Source: Clostridia bacterium
GTDB taxonomy: Bacteria > Bacillota > Clostridia > Peptostreptococcales > Anaerovoracaceae
Length of the DNA stretch: 64,000 bases
Reading direction: 5' to 3'
Assembly (NCBI GenBank): GCA_910575405.1
Contig: CAJTER010000013.1
Coordinates: 1 to 64,000 of the forward strand
Shown here: positions 30,878-41,785 of the stretch, piece by piece
Layout of the letters: every line of letters begins with the position of its first letter
Position numbering within the stretch: position 1 is the stretch's first letter
Notes under the pieces: generated by a model
The model's database searches: none
What the model was told of the DNA's origin: nothing
What the model saw: only the letters and a program-made list of their open reading frames with translations
Program-made: the position numbers and the translations under genes

Positions 30878-32152
30878 CTACAGATCCTTAAAGTGGAACT
30901 CCTTTGCTCCGCTGGCGTAATCGGCAACAATCTGGCCGTTTCCAAAGAGCTTGTACTTGTAGGTGACAAGGCCGTCAAGTCCCACAGGGCCTCTGGCGTG
31001 AAGTTTTCCGGTGCTGATGCCAACCTCGGCGCCAAAGCCGTAGCGGAAGCCATCGGCAAAGCGGGTGGAACAGTTCTGGTAAACTCCGGCAGAGTCTACA
31101 TTTGCCATAAAGAGTTCCGCTGCCTGCTGGTTTTCTGTTACAATGCAGTCCGTGTGGTGGGAGCCGTAGCGGTTGATGTGTTCCACCGCCTGTTCCAGGG
31201 AGTCTACCAGTTTGATACTTAAAATATAGTCCAGGTATTCGGTTTCAAAATCCGCGCTGTTCGCTGCCTTGCAGGAAATCAGTCGGCAGGTATCCGCATC
31301 GCCGCGCAGTTCAATGGAGGTTCCGGCCGCCTGAGCAAGACGGGGCAGGAACTCATCTGCGGCCGCCCGGTGCACCAGCAGGGTTTCTACCGCATTGCAG
31401 GCAGCCGCATACTGGGTTTTGGAGTCAATGACAATGGGCACAGCCTTATCCAGAGCCGCGTCCTTGTCCACATAAACGTGGCAGATGCCGTCAGCATGGC
31501 CCATGACGGGGATTTTGGAGTTTGTCATAATATACTGGACGAACGCATTAGAGCCCCTTGGAATAATCAGATCCACCGATTCGTGGCATTTGAGCAGTTC
31601 ATCGATTCCGGCCCGATCTTCAATGAGCGTGGCAAAGCCCTGTGGCAGACCGGCAGCAACACCTGCCTCAAAGATGCAGTCAAAGAGGGCGCGGTTGGTA
31701 TTAGCGGCTTCGCTGCCGCCCTTTAGAACAGCGCAGTTTCCGCTCTTAATGCAGAGGGCGGAAATCTGAACCAGCGCATCTGGCCGGGATTCAAAAATAA
31801 CGCCGATTACCCCGATAGGGCAGGTTGTCTTCACCAGAGTAAGACCTTCGTCCAGCTGGCGTTTCAGCAGCTGCCGAAAGAGGGGATCCTCCATGGCGGC
31901 CAGATCCTCCATGCCCTTGATACAGTCTGCCAGCTTGTGCTCGTCGAACCTCAGTCTGCTCTGGATGGGAGCCGGCAGGCTGTCCTGGGCGGCCCGCTGC
32001 AGATCCTTTTTATTAGCAAGGAAGATCGCTTCCTTGTGCTCTCTGAGGCTTGCGATAATGGCCTTCAGAGCGCCATCCCGCACTTCACAGGAAAGAGAAG
32101 CTGTCTTAAAGCTGTCCGCCTTTACGCCTCTTGCGATTTCTTTGTAATCCAT
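30878..32152 (-). CDS. proA: Glutamate-5-semialdehyde dehydrogenase (gamma-glutamyl phosphate reductase)
   Basis: A 424-residue NADPH-dependent enzyme of proline synthesis that reduces gamma-glutamyl phosphate. Family marks are CPIGVIGVIFESRPDALVQI, CIKSGNCAVLKGGSEA, IPRGSNAFVQYI, the catalytic Cys region YAAACNAVETLLVH and the ending GPVGLDGLVTYKYKLFGNGQ. The frame runs far upstream into the previous gene, but AAAGGAT before the ATG at 32150-32152 gives the normal N-terminus. It overlaps the upstream RNase H-like gene by 31 bp. proB and proC lie 2 kb away on the other strand. Confidence 0.95.
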   Translation of the reverse strand: MDYKEIARGVKADSFKTASLSCEVRDGALKAIIASLREHKEAIFLANKKDLQRAAQDSLPAPIQSRLRFDEHKLADCIKGMEDLAAMEDPLFRQLLKRQLDEGLTLVKTTCPIGVIGVIFESRPDALVQISALCIKSGNCAVLKGGSEAANTNRALFDCIFEAGVAAGLPQGFATLIEDRAGIDELLKCHESVDLIIPRGSNAFVQYIMTNSKIPVMGHADGICHVYVDKDAALDKAVPIVIDSKTQYAAACNAVETLLVHRAAADEFLPRLAQAAGTSIELRGDADTCRLISCKAANSADFETEYLDYILSIKLVDSLEQAVEHINRYGSHHTDCIVTENQQAAELFMANVDSAGVYQNCSTRFADGFRYGFGAEVGISTGKLHARGPVGLDGLVTYKYKLFGNGQIVADYASGAKEFHFKDL

Positions 32153-33147
32153 TGGTTTAATATCCTTTCTAAACATACCTTTACAAAATGATTGATTTCC
32201 AAATAATGAATTTGATCCTGCTCCTCTAAAATCAGAAAGCCTTCCTGGCAGCCCGGATACTTTTCGAATACAGAGATATCCAGCTTCAGTGTCTGCAGAT
32301 CCACCAGCGTCATACTCGAATGGCGGATAATGGGGACAAAAACGGTGAACGTCCGGCTGCTGGCAGAAAACTGGGCGGAGCACGGGATGCCATCCCATTC
32401 AAAACAGCGGTAACTGACTGCCTTCGGCCCCTGGCGGCCTTTTACAGCCAACTGGTCTTTGGAAAAGGAAATGTTCTCAACAATTAAATTAGAAACCTGG
32501 GGAGAGCCTGTACAAACCGGAAATCCCATGTAGTACAGCGCCTTGTGCAGGTCGCACTTTTCCAACACCCAAAGGAGCCTGTAGAGCTGAATAATATCAT
32601 CGTGGTTGTGCAGCAAAATCGTCTGCTTTACACAAGGATCCCGCTGCGAAAGATACTGATAATAAAGCGCAACACTTTCCCCGCCTGAGATTTCATCCCT
32701 TCGGTGCTCCCAGAGCCCCATAAAATTTTCTACTGTTTTTTGCTTTAAATTCGGAAGGAATTTCTGGATGGGGCTGTAGTTTTTTACCAGGAGATACAGA
32801 TCCAGATTGTACGGGAGCATTTCCGCGCAGCTTCCCGCCCGCCTGCGGATAAAGGGAAGATCAAAGCGGTGCCCATTGTAGGTCAGAAGCACATCGCAGG
32901 ATTTGAGAGCCGAAAGGTATGCCTGAAGGGTCTCCTGCTCCAGGCTTAGATCTTCCGCAAAGAACTGATGCGCCTTCAGTCCGCTTTTTTCCTCTGTCAG
33001 AAGACCGCCCAGCACAAAGCTGCATTTTTCAGGGTTCAGTCCGGTTGTTTCGATATCCGCTGCCCCAAGCTTCATGCCCTTAAAATAAAGTGTAAAGGCT
33101 TTTGAATGATAATGGGGGTATGTAATTGTATCCGTAATATACGTCAT
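32122..33147 (-). CDS. RNase H-like (DEDD exonuclease type) domain protein
   Basis: A 341-residue protein of the YprB / RNase_H_2 family. The DEDD-type metal residues are visible in GAADIETTGLNPEK (Asp, Glu), TYNGHRFDLPFIRRR (Asp) and LLHNHDDIIQLYRLL (His, Asp). The C-terminal 120 residues form a beta-rich domain without a known motif. The substrate is unknown; relatives are thought to act on nucleic acids. It is the first gene of a minus-strand pair with proA. Confidence 0.82.
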   Translation of the reverse strand: MTYITDTITYPHYHSKAFTLYFKGMKLGAADIETTGLNPEKCSFVLGGLLTEEKSGLKAHQFFAEDLSLEQETLQAYLSALKSCDVLLTYNGHRFDLPFIRRRAGSCAEMLPYNLDLYLLVKNYSPIQKFLPNLKQKTVENFMGLWEHRRDEISGGESVALYYQYLSQRDPCVKQTILLHNHDDIIQLYRLLWVLEKCDLHKALYYMGFPVCTGSPQVSNLIVENISFSKDQLAVKGRQGPKAVSYRCFEWDGIPCSAQFSASSRTFTVFVPIIRHSSMTLVDLQTLKLDISVFEKYPGCQEGFLILEEQDQIHYLEINHFVKVCLERILNQWITKKSQEA

Positions 33148-33224
33148 ATGTATGCTGCCTTTTATCCTTTCCTATCCTTTTCGATTATACCACAGGATTC
33201 CCCATAATTGGGATCTTTGGTGAC

Positions 33225-33351
33225 AAAAAACAAAACAGACTGCAGGGGAGCAGTCTGTTTTGTTCAAAAGGGGTATTGGGATTAGAGATTAATGAGGTTA
33301 TCAGGGGGATAACCACAATTTGATTATAGCGGGTTGTGTCAAAAAAATCAA
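33225..33351 (-). promoter_or_regulatory. Promoter, 5' hairpin and leader terminator of the RNase H-like/proA transcript
   Basis: On the minus strand, TTGATT (33351-33346) and TATAAT (33328-33323), 17 bp apart, predict a start near 33316. The RNA would begin with a GGTTATC/GATAACC hairpin (33314-33296) and then meet a perfect 13-bp stem (33262-33231) followed by TTTTTT, about 80 bases before the first start codon. This is a strong intrinsic terminator in a leader, suggesting attenuation or a short stand-alone RNA of about 90 nt. No antiterminator fold or leader peptide was found. Confidence 0.55.
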
Positions 33352-33539: not shown

Positions 33540-33800
33540 GTGGAAGTTTTAAAAGTTTCAGCAAAATCGAATCCGAATTCGGTAGCAGGAGCACTCGCAG
33601 GAGTATTAAGAGAAAAAGGCGGAGCAGAAATACAAGCCATCGGGGCCGGGGCGCTTAATCAGGCAGTAAAGGCAATCGCCATTGCCAGGGGCTTTGTAGC
33701 ACCCAGCGGCATTGATCTGGTGACCATACCAGCGTTTACGGATATTGACATAGACGGCGAGGAGCGAACTGCAATCAAGCTCATTGTAGAACCGAGATAA
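33540..33800 (+). CDS. spoVS: Stage V sporulation protein S
   Basis: An 86-residue SpoVS of the AlbA-like fold, nearly identical in length to Bacillus SpoVS. Conserved segments are MEVLKVSAKSNPNSVAGALAG, IQAIGAGALNQAVKAIAIAR and the ending ERTAIKLIVEPR. It acts in spore coat assembly and septation control; homologs occur in most spore formers. It starts at GTG 33540 after AAAGGAGGATGAATTA. A TATAAT-containing AT-rich stretch near 33436 may be its promoter. It is monocistronic, ending at a strong terminator. Confidence 0.95.
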   Translation: MEVLKVSAKSNPNSVAGALAGVLREKGGAEIQAIGAGALNQAVKAIAIARGFVAPSGIDLVTIPAFTDIDIDGEERTAIKLIVEPR

Positions 33801-41639: not shown

Positions 41640-41785
41640 TTGCCAAGAAAAAGAGACAATGCTATTATAAAGTTGTTATACGACTGACGGATAAAGTGGA
41701 ATGGACCACGTGAAGTATAATGCATGCTGTAAGCCGACCGTCTGGGCACCATATCTGTCCGGATCGTCAGGCTTTTTTGTATTTT
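41640..41785 (+). promoter_or_regulatory. Promoter and ZTP (pfl) riboswitch with terminator, upstream of fhs
   Basis: TTGCCA (41640-41645) and TATTAT (41663-41668), 17 bp apart, start the RNA near 41675. The aptamer shows the ZTP hallmarks: P1 TTATAC pairing with GTATAA (41677-41720 region), CGACTGACGG, the AGTGGAA...ACCACG stem, and the 3' conserved CCGTCTGGGCA (41738-41748). The last segment also forms the left arm of a terminator ending GGCTTTTTT (41769-41777), so ZTP/ZMP binding would be expected to turn fhs on. Confidence 0.88.

Follow-up and report, generated by a model that had tools for sequence, protein, structure and literature searches.

A candidate C-rich small RNA family of Peptostreptococcales and part of Tissierellales, with a likely Spo0A box in one class of its promoters

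The 64,000-nucleotide stretch of Anaerovoracaceae DNA analysed here (the window) carries on its minus strand a small RNA gene that, judged by comparative sequence analysis, is real and separate and is not an attenuator of the genes that follow it. By the same comparison, the RNA founds a family, present in the order Peptostreptococcales and in at least part of Tissierellales, for which no description was found in the literature searched, supplementary tables lying outside the scope of that search. Such tables may already include, under a number, a copy from C. difficile. We consider it quite probable that the RNA is a stand-alone, trans-acting, C-rich sRNA with its own promoter and terminator that pairs with G-rich ribosome-binding sites and that, in relatives with one of two linker types, is under the control of Spo0A.

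The initial annotation had described a minus-strand promoter, a 7-bp hairpin at the very 5′ end, a perfect 13-bp stem followed by six T and a start codon about 80 bases beyond, and each of these elements is present. The promoter pairs a −35 TTGATT (33346–33351, minus strand), at a position where relatives also have TTG, with a −10 TATAAT (33323–33328, minus strand), matched by −10-like hexamers in relatives; the spacer is 17 nt and a promoter scan scores 10 of 12 consensus matches. The position of the −10 element places the predicted 5′ end near 33316 and, with the 3′ end placed in the T run, the predicted RNA is about 92 nt long (33225–33316, minus strand). By sequence and fold, it begins with the hairpin GGTTATC-CCCCT-GATAACC at 33314–33296 (GGUUAUC-CCCCU-GAUAACC in the RNA, with the loop at 33307–33303). 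An unpaired linker, UCAUUAAUCUCUAAUCCCAAUACCCCUUUUG (33265–33295, minus strand), follows, which holds two C-rich motifs and is the most conserved part in alignments of homologues. The RNA closes with an intrinsic terminator, whose perfect 13-bp stem, CAAAACAGACTGC/GCAGTCTGTTTTG (33262–33231, minus strand), encloses a C-rich loop, UCCCCU (33249–33244), and leads into the T6 run (33230–33225). The next start codon, an ATG at 33147, lies 78 nt past that run. The fold of the sRNA has an energy of −33.1 kcal/mol, whereas 200 dinucleotide shuffles give −7.92 ± 2.52 and include no equally good fold (z = −9.99), and a covariance model of which the window's sequence is itself part scores 118 bits at 33226–33316. 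Consensus scans give no excess of promoters (1 found vs 2.6 expected) or of terminators (0 found vs 1.8 expected), the latter scan missing 33231–33262 because, in our reading, pairing of the stem can continue into the T run. It is conservation at the sequence level, and not the consensus scans, that sets the locus beyond chance.

A 146-bp DNA query matches 40 of 60 relatives, the window's own genome counted, and thirty aligned loci share a nearly invariant core. Covariance model R1 was built from 22 of these thirty, the other eight, with terminators that could not be aligned, being excluded. The Infernal search across related genomes that had been proposed for this region was run, and at strict filters R1 matches 192 of the 297 genomes of the order (own genome counted) and leaves 105 without a match. 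We take the order to be Peptostreptococcales, the window's family to be Anaerovoracaceae and a second family discussed below, f4, to be Peptostreptococcaceae. A class-wide sample gave matches in 13 of 391 genomes, 12 of them in the order and the other being G452. A phylum-wide sample gave 3 of 398, two of which are real family members; the third, at L332 in G710, was rejected on reading as a terminator look-alike. Sensitivity at strict filters is imperfect, because one Peptostreptococcaceae genome (G087, closed, 4.26 Mb) was missed in the class sample and then matched in a laxer search. Its divergent copy (L227, 1501–1581, E 0.04) has TGTCG in the promoter spacer and is flanked by a NifS-like gene and by a transporter-like gene in antisense orientation, both recognised by likeness; a better-scoring match in the same genome (L217, E 0.002) looks like a bare terminator and was rejected. 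A pattern scan of named genomes returned at least 120 stretches, the matches listed including Emergencia timonensis, Bacilliculturomica massiliensis, Romboutsia, Paraclostridium, Anaerosalibacter, a Soehngenia MAG, Geosporobacter and Tissierella, the last of which belongs to Tissierellales. Searches of phage and plasmid collections returned a copy from Acetoanaerobium noterae, in a 2.6-Mb record labelled plasmid, as the only real match, with one weak match (E 0.9) in the phage collections. Multiple copies occur as well, with 19 of the 42 Peptostreptococcaceae genomes that have a match showing two to four.

Across homologues, promoter and terminator sequences drift while two parts stay nearly invariant: the C-rich loop of the hairpin and the linker AAUCUCUAWUCCCAAUACCCCUUUU, an unpaired stretch of some 25 bases. 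Both stems covary. In the 22-sequence alignment, two-sided changes are found in 11 of 24 pairs vs 4.4 in shuffles, ten of them among the 15 terminator pairs and one among the 9 pairs of the 5′ helix, which is mostly invariant there; paired cells in this alignment amount to 94.4% vs 35–53% when slid. The 5′ stem has been rebuilt in homologues, for example as GGCCAUC/GAUGGUC and GGCGGAC/GUCCGUC. Among 143 distinct upstream segments, chosen only by the presence of the downstream linker, 138 form a hairpin with CCC in its loop. At least six pairs together with CCC in the loop are seen in 96.5% of the 143 segments vs 14.5% of shuffles, and the mean hairpin energy is −9.0 vs −3.2 kcal/mol for shuffles. 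The five loops that lack CCC include L011 and L017, whose genomes have weak Spo0A_C matches (E 9e-21 and 8e-18), two cases being too few for a test. A further C-rich motif, the third, is a CCCC no more than 60 nt past the linker, mostly in the terminator loop; it is found in 45 of 53 Anaerovoracaceae genomes vs 0 of 29 others, five of which have CCC (not CCCC) in this interval; its restriction to the window's family may reflect a single historical event.

No conserved reading frame through the sRNA was found among the homologues. Open frames with a start do cross the linker in 36, 14 and 1 of 66 sequences (three frames), as they would if the transcript were the mRNA for a small peptide, but the frame differs between homologues, including the two copies at L074, the hairpin–linker spacing occurs in all three phases (28, 22 and 6) and the start would be located right at the RNA's 5′ terminus. 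A coding function is exceedingly improbable on these grounds.

The surroundings of the gene bear on its independence. Downstream in the window lies the gene for an RNase_H_2 domain protein (32122–33147, minus strand; PF13482, E 2e-29), presumably YprB, followed by a gene (30878–32140, minus strand; PF00171 Aldedh, E 1e-21) that we take to be proA, Pfam giving the aldehyde dehydrogenase family only and the start being provisional. The divergent neighbour is spoVS (33540–33800, plus strand; PF04232, E 6e-40). Homologues were sorted by linker into an 'A' type, AAUCCC, which is the window's own, and a 'T' type, AUUCCC. The A-type gene order is spoVS (where found), sRNA and RNase_H_2 gene, the last codirectional and within 1 kb in 111 of 139 occurrences (duplicates kept; downstream sequence too short in 14 of the 139). 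T-type loci instead have an asparaginase-like gene downstream in 13 of 14 inspected cases and, as nearest upstream ORF, a LUD-domain-like or NifS-like gene in 12 of 14; five representatives were checked with Pfam, two asparaginase-like genes among them, and the others were recognised by likeness. At eight loci (L007, L026, L057, L087, L106, L129, L207 and L227), the next ORF, of at least 200 aa and at most about 310 nt from the linker, is antisense to the RNA, with no longer codirectional ORF over the opposite-strand one. Other opposite-strand entries, at about 1 kb, are probably start-choice artefacts and stand outside the eight. In one of these cases, L106, the RNase_H_2 and proA genes are located elsewhere.

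The RNase_H_2 gene of the window also has a likely promoter of its own, an extended −10 element, TGGTATAAT, at 33192–33184 (minus strand) that lacks a clear −35 and is enriched in relatives. Of 97 distinct 70-nt stretches that follow A-type terminators, 42 contain such an element vs 1.8 expected from shuffles, and the other 55 lack it. In some relatives, such as L051, L052 and L056, the gap between the terminator and the next start codon is as short as about 25–35 nt, so read-through may feed the next gene there. These observations weigh on two readings in which the RNA serves as a leader. The first is a 5′ leader with a regulated terminator, an attenuator of the RNase_H_2/proA transcript, and both the frequent codirectional RNase_H_2 gene of A-type loci and the short gaps just described would fit it. 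Against it, no alternative fold stands out, the minimum-energy and centroid structures agree and the initial annotation's remark that neither an antiterminator nor a leader peptide is obvious is borne out by a single stable fold and by the lack of a conserved frame. The separate −10 in the window and its enrichment in relatives, the asparaginase-like gene downstream in most inspected T-type loci and the antisense genes at eight loci argue in the same direction, and the attenuator was rejected as very unlikely. The attenuation of proA suggested at the outset fares no better, since proA is only the second gene down and the other linker type has other genes. The alternative offered with it, an independent small RNA some 90 nt long, is the one that gains from order-wide conservation, covariation, changing neighbours, antisense genes and the separate −10.

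The second reading is a 5′-UTR-derived sRNA that is mostly terminated and partly read through to the downstream gene. C. difficile SpoY offers a model: in the accessible part of its description, it is 5′-UTR-derived, lies upstream of CDIF630_00827, shares its start with the downstream gene and appears in Hfq RIL-seq (PMC10267692). L051, L052 and L056 leave little space for a second promoter and thereby lend this reading some weight, but the likely second promoter seen in the window, as in many of its relatives, and the antisense orientation of next genes at other loci make such a dual life rather unlikely. The locus of SpoY, compared by description only, is given no NifS-like neighbourhood of the kind seen at L227 in the part of the source available.

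Rfam 15 yields no gathering-score match at the locus and none in nine homologous loci; the only such match in the window is a ZMP/ZTP riboswitch at 41670–41754 (plus strand, 58.7 bits). Membership in LhrC (RF00616; 24.8 bits vs a gathering score of 110) and in RsaE/RoxS (RF01820; 15.4 vs 79) was rejected. Of the C. difficile sRNAs n00840 and n01090, both reported as shared with C. sticklandii in the part of the source available (PMC3649979), n00840 proves to be tRNA-Sec. The layout of the RNA nevertheless recalls that of LhrC. The available portion of the Listeria report describes LhrC as a multicopy RNA of 111–114 nt that needs the LisRK two-component system, in which stem-loop A, a single-stranded region and the loop of the terminator all carry a CU-rich motif that can bind the target, and as dispensing with Hfq for lapB (PMC4132741). 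The window's RNA likewise has C-rich motifs in its 5′ loop, unpaired stretch and terminator loop. It differs in clade, promoter box and linker, in that most Anaerovoracaceae genomes have a single match and in that the terminator-region CCCC is, among the genomes sampled, confined to that family. RsaE/RoxS is described, in the part of the source seen, as a conserved Firmicute sRNA whose unpaired C-rich motifs bind G-rich ribosome-binding sites (PMC6435200). Exposed C-rich motifs are common to it and to the window's RNA. The csRNAs of streptococci are several small C/U-rich RNAs under the response regulator CiaR, and the likeness to them would lie in these traits.

Because its layout is that of LhrC and RsaE, the RNA probably pairs with G-rich ribosome-binding sites, and a mode of action like theirs is most likely by analogy. 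The family has the exposed C-rich motifs expected of such a trans-acting sRNA, with CCC in nearly all 5′ loops and a near-invariant linker, together with a promoter and terminator of its own that are conserved at the sequence level beside differing neighbours, the transcript being a predicted one. In the proposed mechanism, the sRNA would be transcribed from its σA-type promoter and end at its terminator, at the predicted ends. The exposed CCCC(C)U of the hairpin loop and the UCCC and ACCCC of the linker would then pair with G-rich ribosome-binding sites, joined in most of the window's family by the UCCCC terminator loop, and this pairing would lower translation of several mRNAs.

The promoters of the family point to a regulator. 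Of 188 distinct promoter sequences, 172 were kept, those shorter than 60 nt being left out, and a loose −10-like hexamer is present in all 63 promoters of T type, in 99 of the 100 of A type and in 7 of the 9 that remain. TGTCG is present in 60 of the 63 T-type promoters, each time exactly 8 nt upstream of the −10 hexamer. With T-type promoters anchored on the −10, its columns carry 1.7–1.9 bits vs 0.3–1.0 in the six columns upstream; the TTG of the −35 and a TTG before the −10 are conserved too. By comparison, TGTCG or its complement CGACA occurs in 19 of 100 A-type promoters, in 12 of the 19 upstream of the spacer, and in 2 of the 9 others. T-type loci of known family all fall outside Anaerovoracaceae, and A-type loci include Anaerovoracaceae and family f9. 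TGTCGAA is the 0A-box core, in which G2, C4 and G5 are contacted and in which mutation of these bases weakened binding by C. difficile Spo0A, as given in the accessible part of the source (PMC3485338). The box in T-type promoters is therefore likely a Spo0A binding site, and we infer both that Spo0A acts on the sRNA promoter and the sign of that action: with the box between −35 and −10, Spo0A~P should switch the RNA off. Tandem copies, two or three at each of L074, L075, L076, L079 and L206, each have their own promoter and 0A-box core; at L077 (G261), a second, distant copy has no such core in its upstream region. The window's own sRNA promoter lacks an exact TGTCG or CGACA. Its spacer holds a degenerate heptamer, TGTCAAA (33337–33343, plus strand), that matches TGTCGAA at 6 of 7 positions and may be a chance occurrence in a T-rich spacer.

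Box and regulator go together across genomes. With spo0A presence set at E < 1e-35, TGTCG or CGACA occurs in the sRNA promoter in 39 of 50 genomes with spo0A vs 3 of 28 without (78 genomes, kinship ignored), so that 11 of the 50 have spo0A without the pentamer; the window's genome, too, has spo0A and lacks the exact pentamer. Within Anaerovoracaceae, the counts are 15 of 26 vs 1 of 26 (kinship ignored), and outside it 24 of 24 vs 2 of 2, which has no power alone. A looser threshold of 1e-10 gives 41 of 63 vs 1 of 15, kinship again ignored. The table covers 78 of 80 genomes, de-duplication having dropped G044 and, by our reading, G126, both of which lack spo0A and box; adding G044 brings p to 3.6e-9.

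A possible target is spo0A mRNA itself. GGGGG precedes the spo0A start in 18 of 20 sampled genomes of the order (17 by script plus G045, whose start was miscalled) vs 6 of 20 parsed genomes outside it (p = 2e-4; 10 of 30 unparsed), and is found in 24 of 292 background genes. In these first 20 genomes, the G-run is present in 18 of 18 box-bearing vs 0 of 2 box-less genomes, the exceptions being the window's genome and G265, both without the pentamer in the sRNA promoter. In a second set of 20 further genomes, from which G252 was dropped, the prediction was noted beforehand, and the G-run was found in 8 of 11 box-bearing vs 2 of 8 box-less genomes (p = 0.07 alone). Pooled, the counts are 26 of 29 vs 2 of 10 (p = 1e-4, kinship ignored). 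G009 and G156, which have the G-run and no exact box, had near-boxes visible beforehand, and the strict count was kept. Box and G-run thus tend to be jointly kept or lost. Across both sets, the spo0A Shine–Dalgarno sequence is a run of at least five G in 28 of 39 genomes of the order (18 of 20 and 10 of 19; L262–L281 and L333–L352), and the start codon is often GTG or TTG.

The G-run at the spo0A ribosome-binding site suggests, at the level of sequence, a loop between Spo0A and the sRNA. A double-negative commitment switch is a tentative form of it, possible and still doubtful: during growth, the RNA would cover the G-run of the spo0A mRNA, and Spo0A~P, by binding the box in the promoter spacer, would turn the RNA off and free its own mRNA. 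SpoY is a precedent for such an sRNA: in the part of the source available, it binds a G-rich motif resembling an RBS, and its predicted effect on spo0A is to block the ribosome-binding site (PMC10267692). Among linker–RBS duplex energies, scored in 15 of 20 genomes, spo0A does not stand out: it ranks anywhere from best to last, falls mid-range in several genomes and comes last in G045, which had a miscalled start. Since these energies do not consistently favour spo0A, the pairing partner would more likely be the hairpin loop. As genomes that lack spo0A also keep the sRNA, this gene cannot be its sole partner. Extended complementarity near start codons, scanned as AAGGGGTATTN{0,12}ATG in 8 genomes, gave 29 sites vs 24 for the reversed pattern, and no gene recurred among the seed-search loci in the frames read.

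The absence of an excess of long complementary sites in those 8 genomes, together with some 25 unpaired and nearly invariant linker bases, would also fit a decoy or protein-binding RNA, in which the linker is a protein site and not an antisense seed; a simple anti-SD motif would not call for such strong conservation of the linker, which makes a protein partner conceivable. The repeated C-rich motifs, in contrast, fit known antisense sRNAs as far as these are described in the sources seen, and the obvious general partner, Hfq (PF17209), was found in 0 of 53 Anaerovoracaceae genomes, G000 included, all of which keep the RNA, vs 24 of 27 others (these 53 and the 53 of the CCCC count are not the same set). 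A decoy role is accordingly unlikely. For the antisense sRNA preferred here, the lack of a detected Hfq in the window's family means that it would have to work without this protein there, and the third C-rich motif common in this family is compatible, by analogy with LhrC on lapB, with Hfq-independent action. In T-type relatives, the promoter would be a Spo0A target by virtue of the box between its −35 and −10.

An order with gut anaerobes and the C. difficile family among its members thus keeps a nearly unchanged, putatively regulatory RNA that has no match in Rfam 15. Copies of it from genomes that gave no Hfq match offer a test of Hfq-free action of such RNAs. Through the Spo0A-box core that one large group of family members has at a fixed promoter position, post-transcriptional control would be linked to the sporulation decision.
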